Below, piece after piece: positions 37,913-47,339 of a stretch of 64,000 nucleotides of DNA. Below the pieces are notes generated by a model. That model was given only the letters and a program-made list of their open reading frames with translations. It was not told the DNA's origin and searched no databases. Location of the stretch: the IMG/VR virus record IMGVR_UViG_3300034104_005002, positions 62,001 through 126,000 of that record; one strand, written 5' to 3'. The translations under genes and the position numbers were made by a program. Within the stretch, counting starts at the first letter, position 1. Each line of letters begins with the position of its first letter. The stretch comes from a virus.

Positions 37913-38088
37913 CGGATCGGCTCCGGTTGTTTGACCCTTTAATAATCCCACGTTTCGGCTCGCCGTTCTGTATCAACCGCTACCGTTTCCATGATTCGAC
38001 TGATAAGATACGCTGATGGCCGTTTGGTATCACCCGATACAGTGGCCTGGCCTGATCTGTCCTAGTATTGTTTCAACAAAATAAAAAG

Positions 38089-38190
38089 AGCGGGGGCGCC
38101 GCAATGATATAAAACAAGACACTTAATCTGCCATAAAATAATAAAGTATAAAGAACAAATAAAGACCCCAGAGTATAAAGAACTCTAGGG
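38089..38190 (+). ncRNA. Repeat-family RNA candidate, copy 1 (divergent)
   Basis: The copy has the family hairpin (GCG...CGC, 38091-38102), the core ATGATATAAAACAAGACACTT and a variant ATCTGCC end, then a two-way hairpin at 38166-38190 whose loop has AGTATAAAGAACT. No clear -35/-10 pair precedes it, so it may be a decayed copy. The minus-strand gene at 38209 ends just beyond. Confidence 0.4.
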
Positions 38191-38208
38191 CCACTGATTG
38201 TTATTAAC

Positions 38209-38610
38209 TCATGCGGGCAAACTATAAGCAATCATCTCATTTGTGCCCTTGGGCTGTAAACGAATCACCCCATCTTTGACAGTTCGATTACATTTAACAT
38301 TGGTAAGTTGAGTCAGTTCCCGCACTTTACGGGCAATACTCTGGTGGTTTTTAGTAGTCGTAGTGAACGAATATCCCCACACGGGCTGTAGTCCGGCTGG
38401 GGTAATCTCGGCCACGTCTATTTTAATGCGGAACATTTCACCTTTGGCAATGAGAACATTCTCATAATACTCGGTAAATTGTAGCCGCTCGCTGCCATCC
38501 TTGCGGGTTCCAATATAACCAGCAGAGCGAACAATGATAGCATTGCTGACACCAGCAGCACGGCAGGCCTCACGGTGGGCCAGGAGAGCGGTTCCGGTGA
38601 GTTTGATCAT
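38209..38610 (-). CDS. Hypothetical protein (133 aa)
   Basis: The product begins MIKLTGTALLAHREACRAAG and ends MIAYSLPA. It is a basic beta-rich protein with a KRKD-like nucleic-acid-binding flavour (KGTNEM, CNRTVKDG), but nothing I can name. A weak TACACT -10 box lies about 35 bp upstream. Its 3' end is followed by the hairpin of RNA copy 1, which can serve as its terminator. Confidence 0.6.
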   Translation of the reverse strand: MIKLTGTALLAHREACRAAGVSNAIIVRSAGYIGTRKDGSERLQFTEYYENVLIAKGEMFRIKIDVAEITPAGLQPVWGYSFTTTTKNHQSIARKVRELTQLTNVKCNRTVKDGVIRLQPKGTNEMIAYSLPA

Positions 38611-38721
38611 GGGTTGTTCCCTTGACTGCTCCCATAGTGTAGCAGCTCTAGAGGCTAGTGGCGAGGTTTTAACGATTAGCGGTGCTTATGGGTCTGATAA
38701 AATATGTTTATGAATAAAACC

Positions 38722-38750
38722 TTGACTTTATGGGTCACTGCTGCTATACT
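38722..38750 (+). promoter_or_regulatory. Plus-strand sigma70 promoter of RNA copy 2
   Basis: TTGACT (38722-38727), 17-bp spacer, TATACT (38745-38750), followed by ATAAACAAC. No plus-strand gene follows, only the repeated element. The TATACTATAAACAAC stretch is shared by four copies of the family. Confidence 0.72.
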
Positions 38751-38756
38751 ATAAAC

Positions 38757-38868
38757 AACAAAAGAAAACAAAACGCAAAAGCGTGATAATATAAAACGGG
38801 ACACTTATCCTGCACTTTTTTATTATTATAAAAAACAAAAAAAAACCTGGAAGTATAAAACCTCCAGG
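38757..38868 (+). ncRNA. Repeat-family RNA candidate, copy 2
   Basis: A 110-nt plus-strand unit: A-rich start, small hairpin ACGC-aaaa-GCGT, core ATATAAAACGGGACACTTAT followed by CCTGCAC, a T/A palindrome (TTTTTTATTATTATAAAAAA), and a closing hairpin CCTGGA...TCCAGG (38846-38868). On the other strand this last hairpin is followed by nine T residues and terminates the gene at 38882. The hairpin arms differ from other copies but keep pairing, which argues for RNA structure. Confidence 0.55.
38846..38868 (-). terminator. Intrinsic terminator of the gene at 38882
   Basis: On the minus strand the stem CCTGGAG/TTCCAGG is followed by a run of nine T residues with one G nearby. It lies 14 bp after the stop of the 105-aa gene. 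Confidence 0.75.
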
Positions 38869-38881
38869 TGGTTGATTATAA

Positions 38882-39199
38882 TCAGCAGGTTGGATGTTTC
38901 TTATTCTCCCACCGATCATAATGCGCGTCGATTACTTCCTGCAACGGTTCGTAATCAGTATAATCGGCGGCGATTACACCGGGTTCATTACCCAGAACCA
39001 GGAAGATTGCCACCTTTTTATTGTTATGTTGAAGCCGCAATGTGGATTCGTCTGTAGCCACAGTTTCCTCCAAGAACTCAGTCTTGGATACATCCGAATA
39101 TCGAATATTTTCCTCTCCATTGTTTACACTCAAAGGTGTAAATCCGGCCCGTTTGAGGGACTTAAGCAGGGAGCGGACTTCAGGGTGGTAGTCGTTCAT
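38882..39199 (-). CDS. Hypothetical protein (105 aa)
   Basis: It begins MNDYHPEVRSLLKSLKRAGF and has an alpha/beta pattern with VAIFLVLGNEPGVIAADYTD in the middle. A GFTPLSVNNGEE turn resembles phage and cyanobacterial proteins of unknown role. A minus-strand promoter TTGACG-17 bp-AATACT (39224-39252) directly precedes it, and an intrinsic terminator follows at 38846-38868, so it is probably a single-gene transcript. Confidence 0.65.
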   Translation of the reverse strand: MNDYHPEVRSLLKSLKRAGFTPLSVNNGEENIRYSDVSKTEFLEETVATDESTLRLQHNNKKVAIFLVLGNEPGVIAADYTDYEPLQEVIDAHYDRWENKKHPTC

Positions 39200-39223
39200 G
39201 GGGTGAATCCCTTTGACCCTTTA

Positions 39224-39252
39224 AGTATTGCAGACCCAGGCCGATCCGTCAA
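39224..39252 (-). promoter_or_regulatory. Sigma70-type promoter of the 105-aa gene
   Basis: The minus strand has TTGACG (39247-39252), 17 bp, AATACT (39224-39229), about 30 bp before the ATG at 39199. The plus-strand promoter of RNA copy 3 begins 38 bp away, pointing in the opposite direction. Confidence 0.6.
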
Positions 39253-39289
39253 GACCCCAAACGATCAGAAATGCTTATGGGTCCAGGGC

Positions 39290-39318
39290 TTGACAATACT
39301 GGAAAAGTGTTTTATACT
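39290..39318 (+). promoter_or_regulatory. Plus-strand sigma70 promoter of RNA copy 3
   Basis: TTGACA (39290-39295), 17-bp spacer, TATACT (39313-39318), then ATAAACAACAAAAG. This is as close to consensus as any promoter in the window and points into the repeated non-coding element, not to a gene. Confidence 0.78.
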
Positions 39319-39324
39319 ATAAAC

Positions 39325-39452
39325 AACAAAAGAAAACAAGCGGAGGACCGCAATAACATAAAACGAGACACTTATCCTTCTTTTTTATACTATTTTTTAT
39401 ACTAAACAAAAGTGACCCGTAAGTATAAAGAACTCGCGGGTCACTGTTTTTT
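39325..39452 (+). ncRNA. Repeat-family RNA candidate, copy 3
   Basis: The unit has the A-rich start, hairpin GCGGAGGACCGC (39340-39351), the core AACATAAAACGAGACACTTA with a TCCTTC end, and a strong closing hairpin AGTGACCCG...CGGGTCACT (39411-39445) followed by GTTTTTT on the plus strand. With the promoter at 39290-39318 this is a complete transcription unit of about 130 nt. The first 60 nt are nearly identical to copy 4. Confidence 0.62.
39411..39452. terminator. Two-way terminator between RNA copy 3 and the 59-aa gene
   Basis: A 9-bp perfect stem AGTGACCCG/CGGGTCACT with a 17-nt loop. The plus strand continues GTTTTTT and the minus strand TTTTGTTT, so it can stop transcription from both sides. 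It starts five bases after the stop of the minus-strand gene at 39451. Confidence 0.75.
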
Positions 39453-39630
39453 ATACTACTTCAGTTAGTATAATTTCCTTTGCGTACCAAAGTTGAACCA
39501 ATGCATCATCCAATTCTTTAATCTTAGAATCAAAAGTAGCATCTTTAGTGATAGACGCGCACCGGATCAATTCTCTACGGCGATCAAGTAAAGCCATGCG
39601 AATACAATAACCGCTAAGTGTGACAGACAT
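39451..39630 (-). CDS. Small protein (59 aa)
   Basis: This short frame runs from ATG at 39630 to TAA at 39451. The product begins MSVTLSGYCIRMALLDRRRE and has a helical C-terminal half (SKIKELDDALVQLWYAKEI). It ends exactly at the two-way terminator, which supports a real gene. Function unknown. Confidence 0.55.
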   Translation of the reverse strand: MSVTLSGYCIRMALLDRRRELIRCASITKDATFDSKIKELDDALVQLWYAKEIILTEVV

Positions 39631-39664
39631 AACTATAAAGAATGAAGGAAAGTTGGTAAATTAA

Positions 39665-39864
39665 CTAGATCAAGGTGAGAAATTCTTTTTCGTCATATCC
39701 CCCAGAATCCATAGCGTCTTCCAGTTCTGTAACTAGCCCGTCAAAATCTTCACTAGGGGCAAGATGTTGGTCAGAACATCAACTAGGCTACCATATTCTT
39801 CGCGCAAATTATCAAGATACTCCCCACGATTAGCAAAACCGTTGTTCTGATAGGGGCAAGACAT
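39665..39864 (-). pseudogene. Frameshifted small gene
   Basis: From ATG at 39864 the frame reads MSCPYQNNGFANRGEYLDNL and stops after 43 codons at 39733. The next frame continues coherent acidic sequence, APSEDFDGLVTELEDAMDSG then GYDEKEFLTLI, to a stop at 39665. Together they look like one conserved small protein of about 66 residues broken by a single-base change near 39750. A sequencing error or programmed frameshift cannot be excluded. Confidence 0.5.
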
Positions 39865-39962
39865 GAGAGGCGTTCCCTTGGTTGACTAGTCAACTGTAAC
39901 CCATAAAAACCAGACGATCACCGTACCTTGTGCCACTTAAACAACTGGCACAATTAAAATAA

Positions 39963-40346
39963 TTATCCTTGGAAGTTAGGAACACTAAAACCAAACTCAA
40001 ACTTGAAAACTATAATGTTAAGAACATCGAAAATCTCTCTTAGTTTTTCCTTGGCCAATGGGTGCTCTAAAGCATATTTTTCACAAGGATAAAGATCATC
40101 TTCGTCTAGCTCTAAAAGATCCTCATTAACATCTGGAATCTCGTCAGACTCATGGAAACTCAGATCATATTTCTCATTACAAAAGAATATCTTACCCATA
40201 CCTACCACAAAAGTTAGATCATTCTCTTTACAGAATGGAACAACAGTTGATTCAAAGTATTGTTCTGCAATTGCATCAATTTCCTTATAAGCCCTATTTT
40301 CAATCTCCTCAAGTTGTTTGGCTATTTTGTCAGAGATAGTGGCCAT
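39963..40346 (-). CDS. Hypothetical acidic protein (127 aa)
   Basis: It begins MATISDKIAKQLEEIENRAY. The N-terminal third is helical, then come strands (DLTFVVGMGKIFF), an acidic loop (DVNEDLLELDEDDLY) and a hydrophobic end. A TGACCA-18 bp-TATACT promoter (40373-40402) and a cassette stem-loop (40410-40432) lie upstream. No recognised function. Confidence 0.65.
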   Translation of the reverse strand: MATISDKIAKQLEEIENRAYKEIDAIAEQYFESTVVPFCKENDLTFVVGMGKIFFCNEKYDLSFHESDEIPDVNEDLLELDEDDLYPCEKYALEHPLAKEKLREIFDVLNIIVFKFEFGFSVPNFQG

Positions 40347-40372
40347 TGGAGAATTGTCTGGTTGACTGGATT

Positions 40373-40402
40373 AGTATAAGGGAGATAATGGGTTGGTGGT
40401 CA
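40373..40402 (-). promoter_or_regulatory. Cassette promoter (TGACCA-18-TATACT)
   Basis: The minus strand has TGACCA (40397-40402) and TATACT (40373-40378) 18 bp apart, 27 bp before the ATG at 40346. The same spacing and -35 box recur before genes starting at 43084, 53485 and 54173, each time next to the repeated stem-loop. Confidence 0.6.
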
Positions 40403-40462
40403 GGGCCTTGTGACACTTATGGAACTGGCACACCATCAGTCACGATTAAGGTTTTTATGGAT

Positions 40463-40590
40463 TATACTATAAACAACAAAAGAAAACAAGCGGAGGACCG
40501 CAATAACATAAAACGAGACACTTATCCTGCACTTTTTTATTATTATAAAAAACAACAAAAAAGAGTCAGAATTAACTAACTCTTTTATAC
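40463..40590 (+). ncRNA. Repeat-family RNA candidate, copy 4
   Basis: TATACTATAAACAAC begins at 40463. The hairpin GCGGAGGACCGC, the core and CTTATCCTGCACTTTTTTAT follow, then the closing hairpin AAGAGT...ACTCTT (40561-40584) with TTTTATAC on the plus side and TTTTTTG on the minus side. The -35 region is poor here. The first 60 nt match copy 3 almost base for base, showing recent duplication. Confidence 0.52.
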
Positions 40591-40596
40591 GAATTA

Positions 40597-40848
40597 TCAA
40601 TAATTCAATACCTCATTAGCATTATCTTCGGCCTCTTCAGTTGTAACAAATGGGCCAAAAAACTCAGAATTAGGAATACAACCAGGAGAACAAACTGCCC
40701 AATAGTAACCTGGTTCATACAAATTATCACCAGAAGTTTCACGCAATCCTTCGGCTTCATTATGTTGATCACAATCGGATTGTGAAAACCAAGTGATCCA
40801 AACCGGGGTGGACCCTTCGTTATCAGTGTGTTGGATGGTGGTTTGCAT
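40597..40848 (-). CDS. Hypothetical protein (83 aa)
   Basis: The product begins MQTTIQHTDNEGSTPVWITW and contains several aromatic and acidic residues (GYYWAVCSPGC, FFGPFVTTEEAEDNANEV). The pattern with a C-terminal TTEEAE helix resembles small phage proteins of unknown role. Upstream are a TATACT box and an inverted repeat AAGGGGAC/GTCCCCTT (about 40896-40916). The RNA copy 4 hairpin serves as its terminator. Confidence 0.6.
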   Translation of the reverse strand: MQTTIQHTDNEGSTPVWITWFSQSDCDQHNEAEGLRETSGDNLYEPGYYWAVCSPGCIPNSEFFGPFVTTEEAEDNANEVLNY

Positions 40849-40934
40849 GGTCGTGTCCGGTTGACTTGCTTAGTATAGGGTGAGAAGGGGACCATAAACA
40901 GTCCCCTTGTGCCAGTTGTTGAACTGTCTATTGT

Positions 40935-41603
40935 TTAATAATCCCAGCCGTTTTCGTCTTTTATGTATACATTACATGACGAAAAATCGACACATAAAGT
41001 AGCAGTTTGTCCCTCAATTGCATCACTAAGGAAATTATCCGCTGCCTTACGAATAGATGTAAACAAATGATCATAAGAATACATATTAGAAAATCTTTTC
41101 TTAAACATCTGATAACCCTTACAGATCCATCCAACGATGGAATCAATATCATAATCGGCCAATTCTTCTTCACCATATTCACCATCAGACCATTCATCCA
41201 GGGCCTCAATTATACCTTCTCTTACGTTTTTCCTGAGTTTATCCATAATCCACTGATCCTGCAGATACGAATTACACTTATCAATTTTTGTAAAATCATA
41301 ATCATCACCATTTAATGAGGCAGTGAGTAGAGACTGAATATCACTACTTACATCATCAATCGAGGCTGATCTATAACCTCTAGAATTATATCCACACGCA
41401 ACTCTCCCGGCAATATAACCGCCAATCGCCATAAGCTCATCAGTATAACCACAAGAGTGTGGCTTTACAGTATGTTCTAGAATGTCATGGGCAACAACTA
41501 GCCCATCCAATCCTGGCTCAAAATAATTACGACCAGTATCTACAACTATACCTAGTCCACCGTATTCTTCATGCTCTTTAATAACCAGAGAATACTTTTT
41601 CAT
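40935..41603 (-). CDS. Hypothetical protein (222 aa)
   Basis: I choose the ATG at 41603 (MKKYSLVIKEHEEYGGLGIV) over one 42 bp upstream because the latter would lie at or above the transcription start of the promoter at 41628-41656. The protein has an HDILEHT motif (LVVAHDILEHTVKPHSCGYT), with two His and a Glu that could bind metal, followed by a helical C-terminus. It resembles large-phage proteins of unknown role; I cannot name it. Confidence 0.65.
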   Translation of the reverse strand: MKKYSLVIKEHEEYGGLGIVVDTGRNYFEPGLDGLVVAHDILEHTVKPHSCGYTDELMAIGGYIAGRVACGYNSRGYRSASIDDVSSDIQSLLTASLNGDDYDFTKIDKCNSYLQDQWIMDKLRKNVREGIIEALDEWSDGEYGEEELADYDIDSIVGWICKGYQMFKKRFSNMYSYDHLFTSIRKAADNFLSDAIEGQTATLCVDFSSCNVYIKDENGWDY

Positions 41604-41627
41604 GGGAGGAATCCCAGCGACTTCTAA

Positions 41628-41656
41628 AGAATAAACCACCACCACCGATAAGTCAA
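41628..41656 (-). promoter_or_regulatory. Sigma70-type promoter of the 222-aa gene
   Basis: The minus strand has TTGACT (41651-41656), 17 bp and TATTCT (41628-41633). The predicted start near 41621 leaves an 18-nt leader before the ATG at 41603, which decides the gene start. Confidence 0.65.
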
Positions 41657-41736
41657 GACCTTTACTGATAAGATTATCTGATTGGACCCATAAGCAGGAA
41701 TGATCACCAGAGGCCCCCAGGAGCCCGCCAGAGGCG

Positions 41737-41850
41737 TTATAATGGTCTTAAGACAACCACACAAGCGCAAGGGCGTTATTACATAAAACTAGAAACTACT
41801 CCTGCAATTTTTTATTATTATAAAAAGAAAAGAGAGAATAAATCTCTCCT
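41737..41850 (+). ncRNA. Repeat-family RNA candidate, copy 5
   Basis: A TATAAT-like box (41738-41743) precedes the family hairpin GCGCAAGGGCGT, the variant core ATAAAACTAGAAACTACTCC, TGCA, and the T/A palindrome. The closing hairpin AGAGAGAATAAATCTCT (41831-41847) has T tails on both strands. The core differs from copies 2-4 by the same changes as copy 6, so there are two subfamilies. Confidence 0.45.
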
Positions 41851-41858
41851 TTATATTT

Positions 41859-41987
41859 TTAGACGCGCCCAACGTAATGCTGAACGCCAGATTCCAAAGT
41901 TAATTTAACCGCCAGCTCCCAGGCCTCGTTTATATCCTGGGGAGCACGAAACAACTCCCACTGATTAGCACGGTAAATGATAATCAT
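41859..41987 (-). CDS. Small protein (42 aa)
   Basis: ATG at 41987, four bases after the preceding stop (TGAATTATG). The product begins MIIIYRANQWELFRAPQDIN and ends YVGRV. It stops just before the hairpin of RNA copy 5, which would terminate the transcript. Function unknown. Confidence 0.55.
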   Translation of the reverse strand: MIIIYRANQWELFRAPQDINEAWELAVKLTLESGVQHYVGRV

Positions 41988-41990
41988 AAT

Positions 41991-42191
41991 TCAGGCAGCC
42001 AGAATAAGGTTTGCAACTATTTTTTCACCAGGCAATTCTTGGAGTTTATTATAAACAGCCTCGAATTGTTGAACCATGTTCAGATAATAAGCCGACAGAT
42101 GTGGGCTATTATCATAAACTGCCTGCTCTTCATCACACAAGACTGAAATAATGTCCAGGATTTCACCAGAGGTTAGAGTGATTTGAGTCAT
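41991..42191 (-). CDS. Small helical protein (66 aa)
   Basis: It begins MTQITLTSGEILDIISVLCD and is wholly helical. The longer in-frame start at 42305 is rejected because it lies upstream of the TACAAT -10 box near 42262. Coupled with the 42-aa gene downstream. Confidence 0.6.
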   Translation of the reverse strand: MTQITLTSGEILDIISVLCDEEQAVYDNSPHLSAYYLNMVQQFEAVYNKLQELPGEKIVANLILAA

Positions 42192-42351
42192 GGGAAACAG
42201 GAGTTGTAGAGATTTTAGTGGTGGGTTTTCATCACACGTTACGTTGGTGATGACCCTTTTATTGTAAAGGGAGAGAATGGATGATTGGTCAGGACCTTGT
42301 GCCACTTAAACAACTGGCACACCATCAACCACGGTCCAGGTTTTTATAGTT

Positions 42352-42450
42352 TATACTATAAACAACGCAGGGGCGTGATTACATAAAACGAGAAACTACT
42401 CCTGCACTTTTATATTATTATAAAAAACGGGAGAGATTTATTCTCTCCTT
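42352..42450 (+). ncRNA. Repeat-family RNA candidate, copy 6
   Basis: TATACTATAAACAAC is followed directly by the hairpin ACGCAGGGGCGT, the variant core ATAAAACGAGAAACTACTCC, TGCAC and the T/A palindrome. The closing hairpin GGAGAGATTTATTCTCTCC (42430-42448) has T-rich tails both ways. Shorter than copies 2-4 because the A-rich 5' part is missing. Confidence 0.5.
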
Positions 42451-42456
42451 TATACT

Positions 42457-42609
42457 TCAGATCCTCCCTACACAAACTGGATTTTGTGAGTTTAGATCGA
42501 GCATAAGAATAAATCTATACATCGTCGTTGACATACAAACAAACAGAAAAGCTCCCATGACTAAACAAACAAAAATGGTACGAATGGTTGAAAAATTAAT
42601 TTGTCCCAT
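42457..42609 (-). CDS. Small membrane protein, paralogue A (50 aa)
   Basis: It begins MGQINFSTIRTIFVCLVMGA with one membrane segment (about residues 10-26). The leader and start (GTTTTTGTGTTGACC on the plus strand, ATGGGAC at the start) are nearly identical to those of the gene at 42822, so the two genes are probably duplicates that diverged. A TACAAT box lies upstream and a hairpin follows at 42430-42448. Confidence 0.55.
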   Translation of the reverse strand: MGQINFSTIRTIFVCLVMGAFLFVCMSTTMYRFILMLDLNSQNPVCVGRI

Positions 42610-42660
42610 GGTGTTTTTGTGTTGACCCTTTTATTGTAAAGGGAGAGAATGGATGATTGG

Positions 42661-42822
42661 TCAGGACCTTGTGCCACTTAAACAACTGGCACACTCCGTA
42701 ACTTGATTTGATTGCAATAGATTCATTTTAATAAGAGCCGCATCAAATGCAGATGTAATTAAAACGAAAATAACCGAAAAAACAAAAATAACACAAAAGT
42801 CCTTAAAAGTAATTGGTCCCAT
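42661..42822 (-). CDS. Small membrane protein, paralogue B (53 aa)
   Basis: It begins MGPITFKDFCVIFVFSVIFV with one membrane segment. The N-terminus and upstream DNA match paralogue A. Its last residues are read through the repeated stem-loop at 42671-42693, which shows the cassette was inserted at or over the gene's end. Confidence 0.5.
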   Translation of the reverse strand: MGPITFKDFCVIFVFSVIFVLITSAFDAALIKMNLLQSNQVTECASCLSGTRS

Positions 42823-42874
42823 GGTGTTTTTGTGTTGACTGGTTTATTATAAGATGTGGTGAAATTGGTTTTTA

Positions 42875-43084
42875 TTAAATATCCTGAAACCCCCTACCAC
42901 TAACAAGAGCTATCTGGTCAGCATCTTCCGAAACAAGAAAAATCTGGGAACTGCCAATAATGTCTATACGAGTGCGTCGAGGATAATCATCATGTTCGGC
43001 TATTTGCTGAATAAAGAGTATTTTATTTGGATCTAGGTAAACTGGCTCACGAGTTTGCCAATCGGTTAATTTAAGAAATTCCAT
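42875..43084 (-). CDS. Hypothetical beta-rich small protein (69 aa)
   Basis: It begins MEFLKLTDWQTREPVYLDPN and continues KILFIQQIAEHDDYPRRTRI, a pattern of strands with a C-terminal acidic helix that resembles FlbD-like small proteins. That resemblance is weak. A TGACCA-18 bp-TATAAT promoter (43112-43141) lies directly upstream. Confidence 0.55.
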   Translation of the reverse strand: MEFLKLTDWQTREPVYLDPNKILFIQQIAEHDDYPRRTRIDIIGSSQIFLVSEDADQIALVSGRGFQDI

Positions 43085-43111
43085 TGACGATAATGGTGTA
43101 ATGACTAGCTT

Positions 43112-43141
43112 ATTATAAGGGAGATAATGCGTGACTGGTCA
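43112..43141 (-). promoter_or_regulatory. Cassette promoter (TGACCA-18-TATAAT)
   Basis: The minus strand has TGACCA (43136-43141) and TATAAT (43112-43117), 18 bp apart. The repeated stem-loop lies just upstream at 43149-43172. Confidence 0.6.
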
Positions 43142-43249
43142 GGGCCTTGTGACACTTAAACAACTGGCACACTTATGCCCTTCTCCGCGTTACTAGCAAC
43201 TAGAATAAACTCAGTCGATAGGAGACACCCACCCGCTCAAAATTAAATC

Positions 43250-43346
43250 AGCGAAGGGTCGCAATGATATAAAACTGGACACTTATCCTGCCATATTATA
43301 TTTTTATAAAGAATAGAAAAAAATCCAGAGTATAAACACCCTGGAT
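43250..43346 (+). ncRNA. Repeat-family RNA candidate, copy 7
   Basis: The hairpin GCGAAGGGTCGC, core ATGATATAAAACTGGACACT, TATCCTGCC, a T/A-rich stretch and the closing hairpin ATCCAGAGTATAAACACCCT-GGAT (43323-43346) are present. No good promoter precedes it. The minus strand reads seven T residues after the hairpin, a terminator for the gene at 43359. Confidence 0.42.
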
Positions 43347-43358
43347 TAGATTTTTATG

Positions 43359-43721: not shown

Positions 43722-44352
43722 ATACCCCTAAAGATTTTTGGATTTTTTATCCAAACTGGGGCAAACCTAGTATTTTATTGTATAATACACGATGTTCGAC
43801 TTTCTTATAAACTTTAATACTTTATCCCGTAGGAGTATGTAAGAGGTTTATAATAAAGAGAGAACAATTGTCTTTTGTTTAGAACAGTGACCGAATCAAT
43901 GATTCCTGGGTGTTCATTATAAAAAACAATTCTTATCACAATTATATTTAGCATCTTTATGTGGTGGACAGTTGCGAAAGTGTCTGTTTTTTATGATCTT
44001 TTCTGTTTTTTATGATATAATTGTGGGTTGTGTATTTTATGCAGGCCAATACTACTACATAAAAAAGACTAAATTATAAATTATAAAATATAAAATATAA
44101 AATATAAAATAATACAGATATACTACTACATAAAAAAGACTAAATTATAAAATATAAAATAATATAGACATAAAAACAAAATAATACAGATATACTACTA
44201 CATAAAAACAAAATAATACAGATATACTACGAAATAATACAAATAGTACAAATATATTATACACGAATACTAAAAAATTGCCGTAAGGACGTATATTCGC
44301 CCAAATTTTAGACTGCCATAAAAATAAATAACTAGGTTAAGGAATTATAACA
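43722..44352. repeat. AT-rich intergenic region with nested direct repeats
   Basis: This 630-bp region between minus-strand genes and a plus-strand HNH gene has no convincing ORF. At 43963-43985 it has the family stem-loop followed by a T run on the plus strand. From 44050 to 44240 it is built of direct repeats: an about 7-bp ATAAAAT repeat, and longer units of the form AATACAGATATACTACTACA with ATAAAAAAGACTAAATTATA. A TATAAT box at about 43782 points right. It could be a replication origin or a recombination product; the sequence does not decide. Confidence 0.6.
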
Positions 44353-45866: not shown

Positions 45867-47339
45867 TCAATCCTCTACAATAACCTTGGTCAGATGGTGC
45901 TTTGCGCGAGTTACCTGAACATAAAGAAGATTATCTTCTTGTTGTAATTCCCAGTCCTGTTTGGCCCATTTGGACGGAGAATAATGATTCATTCCCAGGG
46001 AGAATACTCGATTCCATTCCCTACCTTTGGACCTATGAATCGTGGACAATACAAGAATCTTTTTATTCTCGGTATCATCAAACAATTCCCGAATCTTATT
46101 GATTAGAGTAGAAATAGGATCATCAAATGCACACTGATCAATAAAGACCATAAGTGTTTCTACCTGATCCTCGATTACCTGACACTTGGTATCATTTCCT
46201 TTTTCTTTATACTTTTGAATCTCTTTTTCCTTATAAATTTCTAACTTATTGATCAGGGTCTTGACGGTGTTTACCTTCCACCTTGTTGCAAGTTTGATTA
46301 GACCTTCACCGATCTTTCTTCCTTCTACCTTACAAGGAATTTTGTTTCGGATAAGATTATAAGCAACCTCCACAAGAGGCTTAGTATTGCGGCAGATGAT
46401 TGCATCCTCTTGAATTACAAGTTTGGCGAGATCTTTTAGGGTACATTCGTCTACAATTCCATCCGGGGAATCGGGGTGAGATTCAACATGCGAAACAAAT
46501 TTTTGGGCCTCTTTTACTACATTTTTGGGGCAGCGGAATGTCACAGAAAGAGGCAGCTCAACTGCATTAAAATCTTTCTTGATTAGATCCAGGGCATTAG
46601 AATCGGCGCCCGTAAATCCATAAATTGCCTGATGTGGATCACCAACCGCAATAAGCCTACCAGACTTTTTAAGCATCATTTTAACTAATGCCCTGCGAGT
46701 TGCATTAGTATCTTGGGCCTCATCAAGAAAAATATAATCGTACTGCCAGATTTTGAGCCTGTTGCGAATCGGCAGATAAATCATGTCTGCAAAATCCACC
46801 ACACTTGTAATCTGGTTAGAGATACTAAGAAGATATTGACACGCATCTACAGCAGTATCATCAGAAACAGTGGTCGGCAGATTATCCCACAGATCATAAT
46901 GATCAAACATCTGGGTCCAATTATTATAATCATCGTCGATACATGCACCGATTCCGACTTCTTTGGCCATTGCAACAGCAGATGTCACAAATGGGCGCAG
47001 GATTTCGTGCTCATTATTAAATTCTTCCCTGGCCAGATTTTGTAACTTATTTCCGTCTACACTGATTCTGGAATAGGCCCTTCTAAGAGCACCAAAACCG
47101 AAACTATGAACAGTGCCCACCTTTACATCTTTATTGATATTCTGTTGGTTTACTCTACATTCAATTTCTTTTGCAATTGCCTTATTGAATGCACAAAAGG
47201 CGGTGGTGCCTTTTGTTACTTTTAACATTTCAATCAGCGTGCTTGTCTTACCAGCACCCGCGACGGCAGAAAGTATAATCGATCCCTTCCCACTCTCGAC
47301 TTCGTTAATGGCGACAGACTGTTGGGGTGAAAGTTGCAT
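45867..47339 (-). CDS. Superfamily 1 (UvrD-type) DNA helicase
   Basis: This 490-aa ATPase unwinds DNA. All motifs are visible: Walker A AVAGAGKTS (25-33), Ia GTVHSFGFGAL (75-85), II FLDEAQD (204-210), III GDPHQAIYGFTGAD (233-246), IV TFRCP (267-271), V TIHRSKGREW and VI LLYVQVTRAK near the C-terminus. It is shorter than UvrD itself and closer to the phage versions used in replication or recombination-dependent repair. The upstream cassette (promoter TACAAT and stem-loop at 47403-47424) is duplicated from that at 45.8 kb, nearly base for base. Confidence 0.9.
   Translation of the reverse strand: MQLSPQQSVAINEVESGKGSIILSAVAGAGKTSTLIEMLKVTKGTTAFCAFNKAIAKEIECRVNQQNINKDVKVGTVHSFGFGALRRAYSRISVDGNKLQNLAREEFNNEHEILRPFVTSAVAMAKEVGIGACIDDDYNNWTQMFDHYDLWDNLPTTVSDDTAVDACQYLLSISNQITSVVDFADMIYLPIRNRLKIWQYDYIFLDEAQDTNATRRALVKMMLKKSGRLIAVGDPHQAIYGFTGADSNALDLIKKDFNAVELPLSVTFRCPKNVVKEAQKFVSHVESHPDSPDGIVDECTLKDLAKLVIQEDAIICRNTKPLVEVAYNLIRNKIPCKVEGRKIGEGLIKLATRWKVNTVKTLINKLEIYKEKEIQKYKEKGNDTKCQVIEDQVETLMVFIDQCAFDDPISTLINKIRELFDDTENKKILVLSTIHRSKGREWNRVFSLGMNHYSPSKWAKQDWELQQEDNLLYVQVTRAKHHLTKVIVED

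Follow-up and report, generated by a model that had tools for sequence, protein, structure and literature searches.

A multicopy candidate small-RNA gene at the borders of gene modules in a T4-like cyanophage

What is a unit that recurs seven times in a phage genome, each time on the strand opposite to the genes around it? The question was raised by a stretch of 64,000 bases (hereafter the window), bases 62001–126000 of the viral record IMGVR_UViG_3300034104_005002, which is 161,054 bases long. Seven copies of one element were found there at 38.09–43.35 kb, every one on the plus strand amid minus-strand genes. Judging from the sequence, the element is probably a small structured-RNA gene transcribed rightward, and its repeated copies would double as homologous-recombination joints.

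The seven copies and their hairpin

The original prediction had placed seven plus-strand copies between minus-strand genes, and both a core search and a covariance model confirmed them. With up to 3 mismatches allowed, the 20-nt core was matched 6 times in the window, whereas 100 shuffles gave 0.00. The covariance model, run over the whole 161-kb genome, gave 7 true copies and none outside 38.09–43.35 kb. The copies are as follows.

38063–38192, plus strand: copy 1 (48.8 bits); −10 TAGTAT 38063–38068, hairpin 38090–38102 (GCGG GGGCG CCGC), core 38109–38131, closing hairpin 38164–38192, mainly a minus-strand terminator
38722–38869, plus strand: copy 2 (71.3 bits); −35 TTGACT 38722–38727, −10 TATACT 38745–38750, hairpin 38773–38784 (ACGC AAAA GCGT), core 38791–38813, closing hairpin 38845–38869
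39290–39455, plus strand: copy 3 (67.4 bits); −35 TTGACA 39290–39295, −10 TATACT 39313–39318, hairpin 39340–39351 (GCGG AGGA CCGC), core 39358–39380, closing hairpin 39412–39444 with a T tract on the plus strand
40463–40590, plus strand: copy 4 (75.9 bits); −10 TATACT 40463–40468, hairpin 40490–40501 (GCGG AGGA CCGC), core 40508–40530, closing hairpin 40559–40586
41738–41855, plus strand: copy 5, AAACTACTCC sub-family (63.7 bits); −10 TATAAT 41738–41743, hairpin 41765–41776 (GCGC AAGG GCGT, one G-U), core 41783–41805, closing hairpin 41828–41852
42352–42450, plus strand: copy 6, AAACTACTCC sub-family (67.9 bits); −10 TATACT 42352–42357, hairpin 42365–42376 (ACGC AGGG GCGT), core 42383–42405, closing hairpin 42429–42449
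43201–43350, plus strand: copy 7 (66.4 bits); possible −10 TAGAAT 43201–43206, hairpin 43251–43262 (GCGA AGGG TCGC), core 43269–43291, closing hairpin 43322–43347

The predicted RNA begins with a leader rich in A (about 13 nt), followed by a hairpin of 4–5 bp with a mostly purine loop and by a constant, mostly unpaired core (consensus A.AYAAAACNNGAnACTnnYCCTGCA). Next come an AT-rich stretch and a hairpin that the element has in common with the convergent gene on the minus strand. The stretch after the first hairpin was nearly constant and ended in CCTGCA, and the cores of most copies contained UCCU. Both cores by which two sub-families had been distinguished, ACACTTATCC and AAACTACTCC, were present in the array, and TATACTATAAACAAC, said to be common to four copies, was found at 38745, 39313, 40463 and 42352. 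The T/A palindrome ascribed to the unit does not occur throughout: in copy 1 and in several relatives its place is taken by AT-rich sequence.

Changing but paired bases had been claimed for the hairpin. The sequences of the seven hairpins differ, yet all seven pair, and the covariation held when about 80 copies were considered. Forty-one distinct copies whose loop measures 4 nt formed the four stem pairs throughout (100% of cells), which none of 500 shuffles matched. The outer pair was A-U in 17, G-C in 17 and G-U in 7 copies; the inner pair was C-G in 24, G-C in 16 and A-U in 1. Two stem pairs varied on both sides, with a covariation score unmatched by any shuffle. Since this set was selected for gap-free alignment, all distinct helices were counted as well: among 14, the divergent sub-family included, 54 of 56 inner pairs formed, and the maximum of 20,000 shuffles was 49 of 56. 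The main helices were ACGC/GCGT, GCGG/CCGC, GCGC/GCGT, GCGA/TCGC, GCGC/GCGC and ACGG/CCGT. Those of the divergent sub-family were AGAGC/GCTCT, GAGCC/GGCTT, GAGGT/ACCTT, GAGGC/GCCTC, AGAGG/CCTTT and AGAGG/CCTCT, plus two imperfect helices. Loops varied in sequence and length (AGGA, AGGG, AAGG, AAAA, AGAA, GGGCG and 6-nt loops). A pseudoknot between loop and core (AGGA with UCCU) was rejected because the loops AAAA and AGAA coexist with an unchanged core. One degenerate unit (L047:3003, minus strand) has a broken hairpin (AACC/GCGT) and an intact core. Folding z-scores of the predicted transcripts were −1.9 to −5.8, in part from the closing hairpin.

By its gene content, the genome is that of a T4-like cyanophage whose nearest isolate is the freshwater Synechococcus phage B23. 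The tail sheath stabiliser, neck and baseplate proteins indicated a T4-like myovirus, and the 95 records matching the 1056-aa baseplate protein were all cyanophages by name, with B23 at the top (57%). The host of B23 is a subarctic freshwater member of the Synechococcus-Cyanobium complex, and B23 is without psbA (PMC7171214); psbA was looked for in this virus and, as in B23, was not found (PMC7171214).

The element was also found in the IMG/VR contigs G001–G007, L058 and L059, with 5–11 copies in most. In B23 four copies are clear, a fifth scored 37 bits and two others were recognised by eye alone; none is annotated. Two more distant phages, of 258 kb and 224 kb, have three copies apiece, and six lie on the fragment G012. 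Copy numbers in relatives range from 3 to 11. A covariance-model search of S-CRM01, Bellamy, S-PM2, S-SM2, P-SSM2, SynMITS9220M01 and DSL-LC02 gave no convincing copy, and weak matches in S-SM2, S-PM2 and other marine phages (13–18 bits) were taken as chance. Core matches in L055–L057 and L060–L066 were discarded, as they look like coding coincidences; sub-family II pattern matches in L097–L112 were discarded as apparent coincidences of the same kind (7 of 16 loci inspected). No family of Rfam 15 was matched at the gathering score or in an E-value search, and a search of the available literature found no description of the element. The results, all from sequence, give good support to a real and apparently new multicopy RNA-gene family; the many further copies supported what the original prediction had proposed, an unrecognised family of small RNAs with own promoters and compensating base changes.

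Promoter, strand and 3′ end

The best promoter score in 58 distinct upstream regions averaged 8.7 on the plus strand, compared with 4.6 for the reverse strand and 4.9 for shuffled sequences (Wilcoxon p ~3e-9). In 37 of these regions the −10 sat 17–22 nt upstream of the hairpin, so the predicted start lies about 10–15 nt before it. The two near-consensus promoters that had been reported were recovered at 38722–38750 (TTGACT-17-TATACT) and 39290–39318 (TTGACA-17-TATACT). These features support, but do not prove, rightward transcription of the element by promoters of the host type, either sigma-70-like or extended −10. The idea of an N4-type hairpin promoter was dropped because the −10 is located upstream of the hairpin.

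T tails had been described on both strands of the closing hairpin. Among 55 distinct right flanks, the tail on the minus strand averaged 5.0 T in 8 bases and that on the plus strand 2.8 in 8; the plus-strand tail is weaker and less regular than described. The good U tail on the minus strand indicates that the closing hairpin serves primarily to terminate the convergent gene, and the idea that the units have their own terminators survived only in part. The same U tail would suit a pure minus-strand terminator or insulator between genes, with plus-strand signals arising by chance; this was barely credible, as the plus-strand promoter is conserved and the core is located outside the terminator.

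A divergent open reading frame (ORF) lies behind and a convergent one ahead of 63 of 73 units. Most of the others seem to reflect ambiguous ORF choice or contig ends, with one real exception, which points at a probable helicase gene. The typical joint runs from a minus-strand gene with its own promoter through operator-like motifs, the plus-strand promoter, the RNA and the shared hairpin to the end of the next minus-strand gene. It had been stated that no plus-strand gene follows any copy. A 142-aa plus-strand ORF (38894–39322) does follow copy 2; since it overlaps a minus-strand ORF and its ATG is unconserved (CTG or TTG in relatives), the statement is probably right.

The convergent gene ahead of most units and the weak plus-strand U tails are also consistent with cis-antisense RNAs, whose transcripts would pass the weak plus side of the closing hairpin and silence the convergent gene, the 5′ hairpin stabilising the RNA. 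Such RNAs would have no need for a core that stays constant across copies facing unrelated genes, and this explanation was judged quite improbable.

Several motifs lie near the units. A palindromic operator-like motif, GTGCCACTTAAACAACTGGCAC, is repeated between genes of the window (39926, 40406, 40905, 42295, 42667 and 43145). A ATCAGCAnTGCTTATGGGTC-like motif occurs upstream of several units (38671–38694, 39260–39283 and 41661–41705 (inverted)) and also in B23 and L092. In G005, two units in opposite orientations are 115 bp apart (L051:8548–8763); the reversed unit precedes a 494-aa ORF on its own strand, a probable helicase, and is the sole case of a possible 5′ leader.

Gene modules between the units

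The strongest property of the elements, absent from the original prediction, is that they are the borders of shuffled gene modules. The modules of the window are as follows.

38132–38790, minus strand: module A, between copies 1 and 2; ORF 38209–38610, 133 aa, with a B23 homologue of 55% identity
38814–39357, minus strand: module B, between copies 2 and 3; ORF 38882–39199, 105 aa
39381–40507, minus strand: module C, between copies 3 and 4; ORF 39963–40346 and a smaller ORF
40531–43268, minus strand: modules D, E and F, between copies 4–7; ORFs 40597–40848, 40935–41645, 41991–42305 and 42875–43084 and small ones

The stretches from unit to unit were clustered by a similarity threshold, which gave the module strings ABCDEF (G000), ABOCPQE (G006), AIBOCPQE (G003), AZOCDEF (G007), GHIBJK (G001), IBJR (G004), GSTOUVWXY (G005) and LAMDN (G002). 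Module A was exchanged as one block among relatives. Modules Z-O take the place of B in G007, and module I is inserted before B in G003. Module O is inserted ahead of C in G003 and G006, and P-Q take the place of D in both. G003 and G006 differ by exactly a single module (I, 945 bases). When flanks were clustered separately, 25 left and 32 right types were found in 45 combinations, one left type occurring with up to 6 right types. The flank combinations and the module strings therefore identify the units as borders of exchange: as read from these genomes, they delimit modules of one gene each, which differ among relatives by insertion, deletion or exchange of complete modules.

A RecA-family gene is present in these phages, and a tyrosine integrase was searched for and not found in G000, G007, G005 and B23, the first three of which may be incomplete genomes. 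Given both observations, homologous recombination between units would be the simplest mechanism, and modules may swap between copies via a phage RecA/UvsX-like recombinase.

By analogy, the closest known relatives of the element appear to be promoter-early stem-loop (PeSL) elements, in which a conserved promoter serves the neighbouring gene that follows it in the same direction. A promoter of host type combined with a stem-loop terminator, repeated between genes of a variable region in a T4-type phage, were found here too, as was the position at the borders of shuffled genes. A same-strand downstream gene was not found, 63 of the 73 units facing a convergent ORF; the conserved promoter here faces away from the genes and would drive a structured RNA whose core is constant. 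In T4-type phages, PeSL cassettes (Arbiol 2010; Comeau 2014, via PMC4503421) are described as repeated intergenic promoter and stem-loop elements in variable T4-like regions and as points of gene shuffling. Their density in cyanophage S-PM2 was judged too low to explain its ORFanage (PMC4503421); in the present array every module is bounded by a unit.

The units could accordingly be a PeSL-like DNA joint only, that is, composite promoter-terminator repeats kept for module recombination that also supply each new gene with a promoter and a terminator, the plus-strand RNA being by-product noise. Whole-module exchange at the units, the hyperplastic early-type region of a T4-like phage and the strong minus-strand terminators fit this explanation. 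It was considered unlikely, since it leaves unexplained the hairpin kept by compensatory change, a plus-strand promoter that outscores the reverse one and keeps a fixed spacing, and the constant core that accompanies them.

Function of the putative RNA and neighbouring features

A constant core, a covarying hairpin and a promoter, kept in many copies with differing neighbours, point to an RNA that acts elsewhere than at its own locus. The RNA would be made during infection and act in trans, most likely by pairing of its UCCUGCA core with target RNAs, probably those of the host, as Yfr1/Yfr10 do via UCCU. The RNA gene would keep the joint conserved, and the conserved joint would let modules recombine with their genes unbroken.

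Yfr1 consists of a stem-loop, an unpaired stretch with ACUCCUCACAC and a hairpin (PMC2190773). It is 54–69 nt long, carries this fixed motif and is nearly universal in cyanobacteria (PMC2190773, PMC6778093); mutation of UCCU abolished target binding (PMC6778093). The phage element resembles Yfr1/Yfr10 in its 5′ stem-loop and unpaired conserved stretch containing UCCU, and would do so in its 3′ hairpin (PMC2190773, PMC6778093); the 5′ hairpin is well supported, and plus-strand use of the 3′ hairpin is uncertain. It differs in its core (CNNGAnACTnnYCCTGCA), its multiple copies and its lack of an Rfam match, and the undecanucleotide ACUCCUCACAC was not found in the phage core. Because most cores contain UCCU but not the Yfr1 motif, the RNA may act in the manner of Yfr1 and does not belong to that family. 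Other RNAs known from cyanophages are CfrI, wcaG, manA, PhotoRC-II, glnA and abiF RNA (PMC12197685, PMC9964418, PMC2864571). These too are small or structured RNAs of T4-like cyanophages, but they are single elements, either cis-regulatory, antisense or listed in Rfam.

Several points weigh against a trans-acting RNA gene. The conserved stem is merely 4–5 bp long. A convincing −35 is missing from many copies, many of which carry an extended −10 (TGCTAGACT). With the weak plus-strand U tail of many copies, the RNA may not end at the closing hairpin. The G005 unit L051:8573 (minus strand) aims at a probable helicase gene on its own strand. When the core was tested for pairing with ribosome-binding regions of the phage itself, it did no better than shuffled cores (mean −7.70 versus −7.64, standard deviation 0.62). 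That mRNA complementarity is not enriched in the phage would also agree with a protein decoy, in which the purine-loop hairpin and core titrate a phage or host RNA-binding protein; high copy number, the conserved purine-loop hairpin and the constant single-stranded core favour it too. However, loop sequence and length vary and the GGA motif is not constant, and the decoy was given a low probability. Overall, the interpretation of the original prediction was partly supported, and the rightward RNA gene doubling as a joint was preferred.

A broader proposal, which we hold tentatively and at less than even confidence, is an integrase-free cassette system whose joint is an RNA gene, present in 3–11 copies, encoding a host-directed regulatory RNA and facing away from the cargo genes. 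The selected RNA sequence would supply the homology for gain, loss and exchange of single-gene modules in freshwater cyanophages. Integron cassette arrays are similar in their promiscuous single-gene cassettes, repeated hairpin-bearing sites between them and whole-unit exchange. Here, in contrast, no tyrosine integrase was found (G000, G007, G005 and B23), the joints carry promoters, and exchange is best explained by homologous recombination.

To our knowledge, how the small unknown genes that fill phage hypervariable regions are swapped without disruption is largely unexplained. At this locus the borders of such genes are visible and coincide with a conserved putative RNA gene. The isolated phage B23 makes RNA expression, its cyanobacterial binding partners and joint-driven module exchange directly testable, and a searchable covariance model is now available for a putative RNA family that Rfam does not contain.

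A second conserved candidate for a structured RNA lies near the array at 43804–43935, plus strand (L067:18794–18925), with two stems and an invariant AGTGACCGAATCnATGATTCCTGGGT. It is common to B23, G003, G006, G007 and L086, has no Rfam match, and shows compensating changes (ATACT/AGTAT to ATTCT/AGAAT; GAAC/GTTC to GAAG/CTTC). Pairing of the core with GTAGGAGTA of this candidate was rejected because the candidate's own stem accounts for how B23 and this phage differ there (ATACT/AGTAT versus ATTCT/AGAAT). A UvrD/Rep-type helicase is encoded at 45867–47339, minus strand; it is 70% identical to that of B23, and its closest matches besides B23 are from Bradyrhizobium and Brevundimonas phages (41–44%), not from other cyanophages. 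Imperfect AT-rich tandem repeats (ATACTACTACATAAAAAAGACTAAATTATAAAATATAAAA) are located beside the array at 44035–44231.

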